IMG/VR virus record: IMGVR_UViG_3300029309_000121
Location: 1 to 36,575 of that record
From: a virus
DNA length: 36,575 bases
Strand: one strand, 5' to 3'
The position numbers were made by a program, and so were the translations under genes. Positions within the stretch are counted from its first letter, which is position 1. Each line of letters opens with the position of its first letter. Under the pieces are notes generated by a model. The model made no database searches, was not told the DNA's origin, and saw only the letters and a list, made by a program, of their open reading frames with translations. This document shows, in pieces, positions 26,441 through 35,167 of this stretch.

Positions 26441-27475
26441 TTAATTGTTTTCTGTTTTAAACCAGTGATTATATATTTCTAATGCTACACGCTGAGTCAT
26501 AAAAGGGGGAACACTCATGCCCATTACATACCAAGGATCAGTATTTAAAAAGTTAAAATCTTCTGGAAAAGTTTGTATTCTCTTTATTTCATATGAATTT
26601 AAATATCTCGGTTTATTCCAATAAATTAATCCTTGTTTTGTAGTAACAGTACGTGAAGGTAATCGTGGATTTAAAGTACTCATATTAAAACAATGTCCTT
26701 TAGGGTGAACAGTTGAAAATGATTTACCTGGTTTTACTTTATACCAAAGTTTTTTTAAATTACCATTAATTAATTTTTCTTCAGTATTTGGTTTAATTGT
26801 TTCAAATGCCTCGGCAACTGAAATAGGTGCTTCATTAAATACAGGTTTAAAAGGTTTTAAATTTAAATCAGATCGGCGTGCTATAAAAAAAGTTCTTTCT
26901 CTTGCTTGCGGTACACCCATTTTTGCAGCATTAAATAAAAATAATTGTGTTTCATATCCAGCTTTTTTAAAATCTCTAAATATTTCTTTTACATAGCCAC
27001 GAGCATTTCCGGCAATTAATCCTTTAACATTTTCAGCAACAACTATTTTTGGCTGTAAAAGTTTAGCTGTTCGAATAAAATGAAAAAATAAATCATCTAA
27101 TCTTTGATATACTTGACCTTCTCTAAATTTAAATTCAGTACCCCATCTTTTTTCACGCTTGCCTGCCAAACTAAAAGTTGAACAAGGAGGTGAACCATCT
27201 AAAATATCAAGATTTTTTAAATCACCTGGAATATCTAAAAGTTCATTAAACTCCTGGACACCCATTAAATAACTAAATTTAGGTTTATGATTAGCTCTAT
27301 AAATAGCCATCATTTCTTTATCAATTTCAACTCCACCTAAAACATTAAAACCTGCAAGTTTATAACCCATTGATGAACCGCCGCCACAATGAAAACAGCT
27401 AAAAACATTTAAATTATTTTTTTTTATATCTTTTAAATCAGATAAATACCAGGCACCAATTTTTTTTTCTATCAT
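26441..27475 (-). CDS. DNA (cytosine-5) methyltransferase
   Basis: 344 residues with the C5-methylase motifs in order: motif I at about 25-35 (FSCFHCGGGSS), motif IV with catalytic Cys98 (GSPPCSTFSLAG), motif VI ENV at 148-150, motif VIII QARER at 190-194, a target-recognition region at about 215-285, and a C-terminal helix 'MTQRVALEIYNHW'. No restriction gene is nearby, so it probably modifies phage DNA to avoid host restriction or acts in regulation. Overlaps the ParB-like gene by four bases. Confidence 0.92.
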   Translation of the reverse strand: MIEKKIGAWYLSDLKDIKKNNLNVFSCFHCGGGSSMGYKLAGFNVLGGVEIDKEMMAIYRANHKPKFSYLMGVQEFNELLDIPGDLKNLDILDGSPPCSTFSLAGKREKRWGTEFKFREGQVYQRLDDLFFHFIRTAKLLQPKIVVAENVKGLIAGNARGYVKEIFRDFKKAGYETQLFLFNAAKMGVPQARERTFFIARRSDLNLKPFKPVFNEAPISVAEAFETIKPNTEEKLINGNLKKLWYKVKPGKSFSTVHPKGHCFNMSTLNPRLPSRTVTTKQGLIYWNKPRYLNSYEIKRIQTFPEDFNFLNTDPWYVMGMSVPPFMTQRVALEIYNHWFKTENN

Positions 27476-27996
27476 TTTTTATTATTAAATTCGAAACCGC
27501 ATCGGGGACAGGTATTGTCAAATTCATTAAATTCAGTTTCTGCATGTTCGCGTGATCCTTCAAAATCTTTTATTTCACCATCGCCTAATAATTCTGATAA
27601 ATCATCATCATCAAAAAAAGGTTTTAAATCATAATCCATAGTTAATTCTTCTAATACTTCTCTGTCCCATTCCGATAAATCAGAAGTTCTATTATCAGCA
27701 ATAGCTAAACCAACTTTTTGATCTTTAGTTAAATTAGTTCTTTTTACTGCAATAATTTCATCTCCATTTGTTTCTATAACTTTTACATTTTTAACTCCGG
27801 CAGCTTTTGCTCCTTCAATAGTGCCATTACCAGCAATAATTGTATTGTTTTCATCAATAACAATTGATCTTCCAGTACCAAATTTTTCTAATGATTCAGA
27901 AATTAATTTAGCTGATCGATCAGTTCTTAATCGAGCATTGTTTGGATCTTGATTTAATTCTTGAATAGAAATAGTATTTTCAAATTTTTCTTCCAT
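27472..27996 (-). CDS. ParB/Srx-like nuclease domain protein
   Basis: 174 residues. The N-terminal ParB-like fold is shown by 'ISIQELNQDPNNARLRTDRS', the 'TIIAGNGTIEGAKAAGV' box and 'VKVIETNGDEI...LTKDQKVGLAIADNR'. The C-terminal tail is acidic and ends with one CPRCGFEF knuckle. Such proteins are often encoded next to phage DNA methylases; here the methylase gene overlaps it. It may bind or nick DNA; NTPase activity as in plasmid ParB is not evident. Confidence 0.85.
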   Translation of the reverse strand: MEEKFENTISIQELNQDPNNARLRTDRSAKLISESLEKFGTGRSIVIDENNTIIAGNGTIEGAKAAGVKNVKVIETNGDEIIAVKRTNLTKDQKVGLAIADNRTSDLSEWDREVLEELTMDYDLKPFFDDDDLSELLGDGEIKDFEGSREHAETEFNEFDNTCPRCGFEFNNKK

Positions 27997-28511: not shown

Positions 28512-29309
28512 TTAAAATGGAACATTTTTATTCCTGGACTTTAATTTTAACTTGCTTTTTGGTTGTTGTACATAAAGAAATGCTTCATAGTAGCCATCAC
28601 GTAACCATTTAAACGCATTTGGGAAACAAGTAACAAATCCTCCGTCTTTTTCAATTTTATTTTGATCTGCTATAGCTCTAAATAAAGCAGGTTTTAATTG
28701 AACCTGTATTTTTTTTGAAAGTTTATTGTAATGTTGATAAGTTAATTTTTTAGATTGTCCACTAGCTCTTTTTTTAATTTTTTGATATTGATTCCAAAAT
28801 TCATTAAATTCATCAGTATATATATTATTTGTTTTAGTTAATTGTTTTAGTTTAATTTGTTTTAGTTCGTGTATCTCTGGGATACTACCCCCCGTATCTG
28901 AGAAATACTGGGGTGGTATCTGAGAAATACTAGTATCTGAAAAAGACTGCGGTTGTTTACTAGGGTTTTGAAGTTCTGGGTGTAGGGTAGTATCTGAGAA
29001 AGACTGCTTATTTGGTGGTTCAACTTTTAATTCATGCCATACTGTTACTCTATAAGCATTAGTTGATTGAAGGCCATCTTCAACTCTACCAATTTTTTCT
29101 AACCAACCTTTTTCACACAAAGATTTAATTACTTTAACAACTTTATTGCGACCAATTTTTGCATCTTTAGCAATAGTTGAATAAGAAGGCCATATATTAG
29201 GATAGTAACTTTGTAAAACCCATAAAACAGCTAATTCATAAGGATCAATTCTGCCTTTTAAAGCTGTGGGTAATGATACAAAAGGCGTTTTTTCAGGTAT
29301 AAAACTCAT
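28512..29309 (-). CDS. Replication initiator-like protein (lambda O-like layout)
   Basis: 265 residues. The N-terminal about 85 residues form a winged helix ('LAVLWVLQSYYPNIWPSYST', 'IAKDAKIGRNKVVKVIKSLCEKGWLEK'). The middle is a Ser/Pro/Gln-rich linker with QSFSDT-type repeats that result from DNA iterons. The C-terminal region has 'FNEFWNQYQKIKKRASGQSKK', the FWxxY pattern common at the end of phage replication proteins, and 'CFPNAFKWLRDGYYE'. Layout (DNA-binding head, iteron-bearing middle, interaction tail) parallels lambda O. It is first in the long leftward operon, and its start codon shares CATG with rusA. Confidence 0.8.
   Translation of the reverse strand: MSFIPEKTPFVSLPTALKGRIDPYELAVLWVLQSYYPNIWPSYSTIAKDAKIGRNKVVKVIKSLCEKGWLEKIGRVEDGLQSTNAYRVTVWHELKVEPPNKQSFSDTTLHPELQNPSKQPQSFSDTSISQIPPQYFSDTGGSIPEIHELKQIKLKQLTKTNNIYTDEFNEFWNQYQKIKKRASGQSKKLTYQHYNKLSKKIQVQLKPALFRAIADQNKIEKDGGFVTCFPNAFKWLRDGYYEAFLYVQQPKSKLKLKSRNKNVPF
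28829..28867 (-). repeat. AT-rich triple repeat, candidate DNA unwinding element
   Basis: TTGTTTTAGTT (plus strand) is present exactly at 28829-28839, 28842-28852 and 28857-28867, starting 13 and 15 bp apart. The copies fall in two different reading frames of the initiator gene, so the repeat is not a peptide repeat. The AT-rich 11-mers beside an iteron array suggest a duplex-opening element. Confidence 0.75.
28871..29005. other. Iteron cluster, candidate replication origin
   Basis: Five 16-bp copies related to GTATCTGAGAAATACT: 28871-28886 (degenerate in the middle), 28894-28909, 28916-28931, 28933-28948 and 28990-29005 (the last two end GACT). Each has inverted arms (AGTAT/ATACT or a variant) around a short spacer. 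Copies at 28894, 28933 and 28990 are read as Q(S/Y)FSDT; those at 28871 and 28916 in another frame as SI(P/S)(E/Q)I. Conservation at DNA level across frames argues for binding sites of the initiator, as in the lambda origin inside O. Confidence 0.85.
29298..29303 (+). promoter_or_regulatory. Possible -10 element of rusA, leaderless transcript
   Basis: TATAAA lies 4 bases before the rusA ATG, so transcription would start at about the start codon. The -35 position (GATACA at 29275-29280, 17 bp upstream) matches TTGACA only partly. Weak prediction based on the absence of any other upstream space. Confidence 0.3.
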
Positions 29310-29742
29310 GGTTCAAAAAATATATATTGATGTCAAAGGGCTAAATCCAGCTCCGCAAGGAAGTAAAGTCTACTTGGGAAAAGGTCGAATGATTGAAAGT
29401 TGTAAAAGATTGAAGTCATGGCGGGATTTAATTAAGAAAGAAGTATTAAAAGCTAATAAAGAAATGATAAGTGGACCTTGTGAAGTCTTTATATGTTTTC
29501 GATTATCTAGGCCAAAAATACATTTTTCTAGTAAAGGTGAATTAAAAAAAGATGCTCCAAAATATGTAATTACTAAGAATAGAGGTGATCTTGATAAATT
29601 AGTTAGAGCATGTTTTGATTCACTAAGCATGACAGCTATTTCAGATGATGCCACCGTTGTGCAGTTAAATGCAAAAAAAAGGTTCTGCGAAAAACACGAA
29701 GAACCTGGAGCACAAATTTTAATAATGCCAGTGAAAAGTTAG
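29308..29742 (+). CDS. rusA: Holliday junction resolvase, RusA family
   Basis: 144 residues from the ATG at 29308 (MVQKIYIDVKGLNPAPQGSK). RusA marks: the N-terminal 'NPAPQGSKVYL', and the acidic cluster 'RGDLDKLVRACFDSL' (Asp94, Asp96) followed by 'ISDDATV' (Asp113/114) that binds the metal ions. It cuts four-way DNA junctions arising in recombination or replication. A GTG 42 bases upstream is possible but would overlap the divergent gene. It is the only plus-strand gene between two leftward operons; its last codons run into an inverted repeat. Confidence 0.9.
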   Translation: MVQKIYIDVKGLNPAPQGSKVYLGKGRMIESCKRLKSWRDLIKKEVLKANKEMISGPCEVFICFRLSRPKIHFSSKGELKKDAPKYVITKNRGDLDKLVRACFDSLSMTAISDDATVVQLNAKKRFCEKHEEPGAQILIMPVKS

Positions 29743-34378: not shown

Positions 34379-34521
34379 ATCAAAAAGAATATGAAATGGC
34401 TATGTCACAATTAAATGATCGGTGGTTAATAGAATCAACTATGACTGAAAATGATTATTTACAAAATAAAAAAGCTATTGAAATTGAATATTTAAAAACT
34501 AAATTTAATTCAAATGAATAG
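34375..34521 (+). CDS. Small unknown ORF, likely TTG start
   Basis: 48 residues (MNQKEYEMAMSQLNDRWLIE and a charged helix). TTG at 34375 overlaps the SSB-like stop by four bases (TTGA); an ATG at 34396 is an alternative. Its end overlaps the next gene by eight bases. It fills an otherwise empty interval; helical, acidic, no family recognised. Confidence 0.6.
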   Translation: MNQKEYEMAMSQLNDRWLIESTMTENDYLQNKKAIEIEYLKTKFNSNE

Positions 34522-35167
34522 AATAACTATTCCAAATATTACTTTTAATAAACATAATATGACCGTTTCTAATACTGGAAGCGGTACTATATCTACTTTT
34601 CCAAGTACTTTTGAAACTGATACAAGACCAAAACATGAAAAGTTTTTTGGAATGTCAGAAGATGAAATTTATAAAGAATATGGTTTAGTTTTTACTAAAA
34701 CAAACATATCTATTGGCGGTGAAATTCAATATAAAATTTCAAGCGATTTTGAAGCTGAATTATGGCTTATCAAAAAAGGTTTTGTTAAATATGTTCGGGG
34801 TAGAAAAGTTTGGCAAGACGAAGCACTTGAGCAAGGGTGGGAAAATGCCTGGACTCCTCCAAAAAATTATAAAGGACCCAAAAATCTTAGAGAGTTAGGC
34901 CATGTTTATTTTGTTGAAAGTCAAGGTTATCACAAAATTGGTAGAGCTACAGCTACTAGAATTAAAGTAAGAATTAAAGAACAATGTCCAGATAAAATAC
35001 TAGCAGTAAGTCCACGTAGAAGTGACTTTAAAAAATTAGAAAGGAAATTACATAAAATGTTTAAAGAAAAAAGAGTTTTAAAATATGAAGTTTTTAGAAA
35101 TCTTAATAAAGAAGATATAAAAATAATTATGAATGAATTAGGCAATAAAATTAATATAGTAATTTAA
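34514..35167 (+). CDS. GIY-YIG/MUG113-like domain protein
   Basis: 217 residues. The C-terminal about 85 residues have the T5orf172/MUG113 pattern: 'GHVYFVESQGYHKIGRATATRI' with Gly-His-Val-Tyr-Phe and 'KIGR', then 'KLERKLHKMFKEKRV' and 'EVFRNLNKEDI'. This is a GIY-YIG-related nuclease-like fold in many phages. The N-terminal half (about 1-120) is of unknown type with Trp-rich 'QGWENAWTPPKNYKG'. It may act on DNA, or it may be catalytically silent; the classical second Tyr is not obvious. Confidence 0.75.
   Translation: MNRITIPNITFNKHNMTVSNTGSGTISTFPSTFETDTRPKHEKFFGMSEDEIYKEYGLVFTKTNISIGGEIQYKISSDFEAELWLIKKGFVKYVRGRKVWQDEALEQGWENAWTPPKNYKGPKNLRELGHVYFVESQGYHKIGRATATRIKVRIKEQCPDKILAVSPRRSDFKKLERKLHKMFKEKRVLKYEVFRNLNKEDIKIIMNELGNKINIVI

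Follow-up and report, generated by a model that had tools for sequence, protein, structure and literature searches.

Palindromic iterons inside a phage initiator gene change with the DNA-reading residues of its product and probably mark the replication origin

The window analysed here is the whole 36,575 nucleotides of the virus record IMGVR_UViG_3300029309_000121, and it includes a winged-helix replication gene with a series of short repeats in its middle. This raises the question of whether the repeats are the replication origin of the phage, bound by the product of the very gene that encodes them, or something else, such as a repetitive stretch of protein or a set of regulatory sites. Based on the comparisons below, the region at 28803-29004 is very probably the phage replication origin, lying inside the gene of its own initiator, where the protein would bind as dimers, the DNA would open and a helicase would be recruited. 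The closest cultured relatives of the virus are Prochlorococcus siphoviruses, with a terminase that is 51% identical. The features of the locus are listed in Table 1.

All five of the related 16-bp copies reported by the first-pass annotation are present. Compared with GTATCTGAGAAATACT, the copies starting at 28871, 28894, 28916, 28933 and 28990 have 4, 0, 0, 2 and 1 mismatches, respectively, and there is no further copy with 3 or fewer mismatches elsewhere in the 36.6-kb window. The assigned reading frames are likewise correct, with Q(Y/S)FSDT encoded by the copies at 28894, 28933 and 28990 and SI(P/S)(E/Q)I encoded, in another frame, by those at 28871 and 28916. The inverted arms ascribed to each copy are real. 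The top-scoring unit is a 15-bp interrupted palindrome, GTATCTnnnAGATAC, in which 10 to 11 of the 12 arm positions are matched per copy, and this is better taken as the functional unit than the 16-mer; unit lengths of 14, 16 and 18 were also tried and gave no result. Shuffling the synonymous codons of the gene, which preserves the protein and its codon usage, did not reach the observed palindrome score of 13 in any of 100 shuffles (null mean 4.7, maximum 9). The half-site class of the window is GTATCT. Iteron spacing in its own clade (57, 17, 22 and 23 bp) is less regular than in other clades, and the iteron 1 slot is degenerate in several close relatives.

Table 1. Coordinates of the initiator gene, the iteron array and adjoining features in the window
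Feature	Coordinates	Strand	Remarks
Replication initiator gene, 265 aa	28512..29309	-	HTH_36, PHROG 270, AlphaFold2 model
Recognition helix residues 54-66, coding region	29112..29150	-	Residues 55, 56, 59, 62 track iteron sequence
Residue 80 codon, wing tip	29070..29072	-	Tracks iteron sequence
Iteron 1	28990..29004	.	GTATCTGAGAAAGAC, 10/12 arm positions
Iteron 2	28933..28947	.	GTATCTGAAAAAGAC, 10/12 arm positions
Iteron 3	28916..28930	.	GTATCTGAGAAATAC, 11/12 arm positions
G/C-tract spacer	28909..28915	.	GGGG at 28910-28913
Iteron 4	28894..28908	.	GTATCTGAGAAATAC, 11/12 arm positions
G/C-tract spacer	28886..28893	.	CCCCCC at 28888-28893
Iteron 5, copy beside AT-rich region	28871..28885	.	GTATCTCTGGGATAC, 11/12 arm positions
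A+T-rich candidate unwinding element	28803..28870	.	Three TTGTTTTAGTT (coding-strand AACTAAAACAA) repeats
Cys-rich gene (NCxAC...CxC), 153 aa	28042..28503	-	phrog_35089 E=1e-37, unknown function; no Pfam match

A total of 122 distinct initiator genes, Prochlorococcus phages included, were obtained as relatives from scans. Close relatives retain the iterons of the window with scattered changes. Distant clades, at approximately 40 to 55% identity, have different 15-bp palindromes in the same linker slots, with the half-sites GTGCAT, GTCGTT or GTAGTT, GTGTCA, GTGACA/T, GTTCAY, GTGTAY and GTACAT. There are about ten half-site classes across the family, each half-site being read from a small number of copies in a gene. 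The second iteron search demanded an outer GT, a feature found in most clades by an unconstrained first search. Measured from start to start, neighbouring iterons are most often 22 bp apart (139 of 282 intervals), so the reading frame shifts by one at each copy, and two or three frames are used by the iterons in 107 of the 122 genes. Linkers of quite different peptide sequence still encode palindromic iterons. The slots are common to clades at approximately 45% protein identity, which indicates that they are old. Since the slots are kept while sequence, frame and peptide vary among the relatives, the DNA is conserved as DNA. This bears out the proposal that the DNA rather than the peptide is conserved, and the check suggested for it, whether relatives keep the iteron DNA while frame and spacing change, came out in its favour. 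The opposite pattern, of relatives with the peptide repeats but not the DNA, is contradicted.

The synonymous-shuffle null is exceeded in the window gene and in most of the clade representatives. In the representatives L022 and L050 the iterons are weak and the single-gene shuffle test is not significant, and 11 of the 122 relatives lack clear iterons with the finder used. Iteron sites are found at 17.2 per kb in the linker versus 0.031 per kb elsewhere, making them approximately 550-fold rarer outside. Within the close clade, synonymous variability was seen in 2 of 10 iteron codons, versus 8 of 20 in the other linker and 47 of 79 in the N-domain, a difference in the expected direction but on too few codons to carry weight. 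A search of cellular genomes with two peptide patterns found no relatives.

Does the protein read these sites? With overall divergence removed, differences in iteron sequence were set against those at each residue of the DNA-binding domain. Among the 52 variable residues, those that best track the iterons are 62, 59, 55, 80 and 56 (partial r 0.70 to 0.44), the highest partial r of any residue in 300 permutations being 0.17. Residues 62, 59, 55 and 56 make up one face of the recognition helix and residue 80 is the tip of the wing. Permutation tests remove relatedness incompletely, and the safeguards against this are a repeat within clades and a tree test. The same five residues lead within the large clade alone, and residue 55 leads in the smaller clades. 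On a tree that leaves out both helix and linker, a change of the helix face accompanies 11.1 of the 18 iteron changes on the same branch, with 1.7 expected; for control residues within that helix the figures are 4.5 and 0.9, showing the possible size of a linkage effect. The sharpest contrast comes from one pair of genes, L054 and L057. Their products have the same residues 1-50 (100% identity) and C-domains that are 96% identical, and their helices differ at residue 55 (R/D) and residue 62 (D/A), with iterons of GTGCAT versus GTCGTT. Repeats and DNA-reading residues change together in approximately 110 related phage genes. This is strong computational evidence that the gene product binds the iterons, and the residue-level covariation with its DNA-reading face supports the earlier claim to that effect. 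Computation has shown this covariation, the position of the iterons and their conservation at the DNA level.

In the protein, a winged-helix domain (aa 13-93) is followed by a disordered linker (aa 93-161) and a helical C-domain (aa 166-245). The match to HTH_36 (PF13730) in Pfam has E=4e-11, and this N-domain is present in 59 of the 59 family members tested. Residues 7-248 match the PHROG 270 replication initiation protein (E=3.4e-20). DnaD_N is below the cutoff in the window protein and is found in 51 of the 59 members at E<=0.01, and the RP-C N-domain is a weak match in 17 of the 59. In the AlphaFold2 model, made from 59 relatives, the recognition helix spans residues 54-66 and the wing strands residues 70-77 and 81-88, and the helical C-domain is predicted with confidence. 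The linker, which encodes both the iterons and the A-rich repeats, is disordered exactly at the iteron sites. Because the iteron segment is translated only as disordered linker, DNA sites can be encoded there in any frame. Searching solved structures by sequence with the initiator gave no match. The top PDB fold match of the model is the primosomal protein DnaD (E=1.6e-3); lower-ranked fold matches are mostly MarR-type repressors, and the winged-helix centromere-binding proteins TubR and pNOB8 are also among them.

On their 3' side, in the direction of the gene, the iterons adjoin an A+T-rich region with copies of TTGTTTTAGTT at 28829, 28842 and 28857. The first-pass description of three repeats in two frames, in AT-rich sequence beside the iterons, holds for their positions and frames and for low stability, but the repeats are not above the single-gene shuffle null, 221 of 1000 shuffles reaching 3 copies, as expected of a Lys/Thr/Gln-rich peptide. 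The 40 bp at 28817-28856 are among the least stable of the window (top 0.07% of positions), with about six other peaks comparable, and the AT-rich stretch is thus not a unique minimum. Across the family, AACTAAAACAA is the most widely common 11-mer 3' of the iterons, being found in 118 of the 122 genes, and it is read as KLKQ in some clades and as (L/I)TKT in others. The spacers between iterons are also distinctive. A run of at least four G or C is present in 149 of 171 iteron spacers (87%), versus 0.75% of 7-mers elsewhere in the genes. The strand of the G-tract is clade-specific, and the phage family itself is A+T-rich. These G/C-tract spacers are a new feature.

An origin is by far the likeliest reading of the array, and the results support the interpretation of the region given in the first pass, with origin activity, like dimeric binding, strand opening, helicase loading and a start of replication at this site, being what we infer from them. 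Initiator dimers would bind the five 15-bp palindromes via their winged-helix domains, with the variable base pairs 3-5 of each half-site read by one recognition helix and a further contact made by the wing. The resulting nucleoprotein array would strain and open the adjoining A+T-rich AACTAAAACAA repeats. The host helicase and primase would then be recruited by the helical domain at the C-terminus, with possible help from the Cys-rich protein encoded next door. The GC skew changes sign at approximately 28.5 kb, a change confounded with gene orientation; for this reason, and with an uninformative third-position test, GC skew was dropped as independent evidence of an origin.

Other explanations of the repeats need to be weighed. 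The sites could be bound by the protein as operators that repress transcription, for instance as a roadblock inside its own gene, with replication starting elsewhere. Winged-helix proteins that bind palindromes are often repressors, and it is repressors of the MarR type that dominate the lower-ranked fold matches. However, a scan of 111 genes from -300 to +30 found no iteron sites, so that an autoregulatory operator near the gene start is rejected, and 4-5 sites arrayed beside an A+T-rich stretch look like an origin and have the same layout as in lambda. The PHROG and DnaD assignments also point to replication proteins. Operators are therefore considered improbable. The array might instead be a centromere-like or packaging site, as the fold matches to TubR and pNOB8 could suggest, but the scan of early genes turned up neither an ATPase nor a GTPase for partition, and the protein has a second domain and matches to replication-family profiles; this is given a very low probability.

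The evidence for recognition could itself be read differently. Joint transfer of one short recombining cassette could make helix and iterons covary with no binding at all, given that the helix codons are only 120-290 bp from the iterons and that the same pairs recur on the background tree. Only the DNA-facing residues and the wing tip carry the signal, though, and this holds when the large clade is taken by itself. Residues 82-98 have far lower scores although their codons lie closer to the iterons, and the buried residues 52, 58, 60 and 61 of the recognition helix do not track the iterons, so linkage or co-transfer alone is insufficient, and an account without binding is very unlikely. Conservation of the repeats as the peptide QSFSDT, with the DNA similarity a by-product, or a recent expansion by slippage, would fit the frame and peptide common to 3 of the 5 window copies and a linker that tolerates change. 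Against this, the frame differs for two copies, no shuffle reached the observed score, and relatives with quite different peptides have palindromes in the same old slots. These frames, shuffles and relatives rule out the peptide-repeat explanation, which is left with practically no probability.

The surroundings of the putative origin contain several genes worth recording. A RusA-like resolvase gene (29308-29742, + strand) directly abuts the start of the initiator gene, which is on the other strand, so that hardly any room for a promoter remains, an arrangement also seen in MED4-184 and MED4-117. In the window, as in those relatives that were examined, the Cys-rich gene immediately follows the initiator. 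Its predicted fold is of low confidence (pLDDT 52), and a search of solved structures by sequence returned one meaningless match. As a guess, its product is a candidate partner of the initiator and possibly a functional analogue of a helicase loader. The early genes scanned include those for RusA, an exonuclease, an ERF annealing protein and a T5orf172 protein, with no polymerase or helicase among them. The T5orf172/MUG113-type (GIY-YIG-like) domain protein is encoded in the early region at 34514-35167 (+). In phage ICP1, an origin-directed nuclease has a T5orf172-type domain fused to an initiator-like DNA-binding domain (PMC8263062); no such fusion is seen here. A C5-cytosine DNA methylase gene (26441-27475, - strand) is beside a gene of 174 aa without a Pfam match (27472-27996). 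The initiator of MED4-184 is a single frame. That of MED4-117 (L083, 4001-4769) is annotated as two overlapping frames, with a frameshift near the start of C-domain coding, which is either a sequencing error or a real change. The related Synechococcus phage KBS-S-2A has no annotated initiator.

These results point to a concrete candidate origin that can be tested, in a family to which the cultured Prochlorococcus phage P-HS2 belongs. No description of the origins of marine cyanobacterial siphoviruses was found in searchable papers, and none was found in the searchable literature for P-HS2, MED4-184 or MED4-117. The larger value is a catalogue of naturally matched initiator-iteron pairs, in which about ten half-site classes are set against five residues. 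From it a recognition code for this type of winged helix may be read and then tested with natural alleles. The use of an in-gene origin would be that protein and site are inherited together. It is conceivable, at slightly less than an even chance, that the family is a recombining set of about ten specificities on a common initiator scaffold, with a half-site code set by four recognition-helix residues and one in the wing, transferred as one cassette and with required G/C spacers. Frequent switching of specificity would be driven by origin competition or interference, from co-infecting phages, satellites or iteron-targeting nucleases.

The layout of the locus resembles that of lambda. The lambda initiator gene carries its origin in the middle, as the window gene does its putative origin, and in both the iterons are interrupted palindromes in several frames with an A+T-rich region directly 3' of them (PMC5043065, PMC7466680). 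In lambda this region opens on O binding (PMC5043065, PMC7466680), and O still complements after in-frame deletions in the AT-rich part (PMC6022878). Put through the same kind of scan, lambda O yielded the four iterons known for it, in three frames, which shows that a proven case is recovered by the method. Lambda O binds its iterons as dimers; for the present family, the matching observations are palindromic sites and covariation of the recognition face with the half-site. The label of a lambda-style origin therefore stands for the layout but not for the protein, which is not a lambda O homologue. PF04492 (Phage_rep_O) was found in 0 of 59 family members, with lambda O itself at 6e-36, and there is no detectable sequence similarity between the family and lambda O (profile comparison probability 0.1%). 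Membership of the lambda O family is rejected on these grounds. The resemblance appears to be architectural, the protein being nearer to the HTH_36/DnaD type. Iterons are 15 bp in this family versus 18-19 bp in lambda, and the mostly 22-bp pitch, the G/C-tract spacers and the A-rich 11-mers are further differences. There is no lambda P homologue (PF06992) next to the window initiator, the next gene having no Pfam match.

Other known systems share parts of this arrangement. The initiators of RepA_N plasmids (pSK41) and the chimeric pPR9 also have a DnaD-like winged-helix N-domain, an origin central in the rep gene and an origin-encoded linker (PMC5703833). Their N-domain and origin are exchanged as a unit, the origin-encoded central domain of pSK41 is dispensable as protein, and the HTH domain of pPR9 is pfam13730 (PMC5703833), which is HTH_36, the same domain as in the window initiator. 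RepA_N (PF06970) itself has no match among 59 family members, and the present family differs in being from phages rather than plasmids and in having many specificity classes within one family. The C-domain of such plasmid initiators recruits DnaG primase, and that of the window initiator is predicted to be helical. In repABC plasmids, oriV is inside repC, in or near an A+T-rich region (PMC3155836), but no iterons are found in repC and incompatibility is tied to the C-terminus. Direct homologues of the initiator, at 42% identity, are found in the Prochlorococcus siphoviruses P-HS2, MED4-184 and MED4-117, which have the same gene order of RusA, initiator, Cys-rich gene and terminase, with the half-site class GTTCAC versus GTATCT in the window. 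In the RepA of the Vibrio cholerae satellite PLE, the DNA-binding domain covaries with the origin and the C-domain is constant (PMC8263062). PLE has an intergenic origin and two specificity groups (PMC8263062), whereas in the present family the putative origin is in the gene and there are about ten half-site classes. What is added here to the covariation reported for PLE and the joint exchange reported for pPR9 is a large natural set at residue resolution, together with the G/C-tract spacers.
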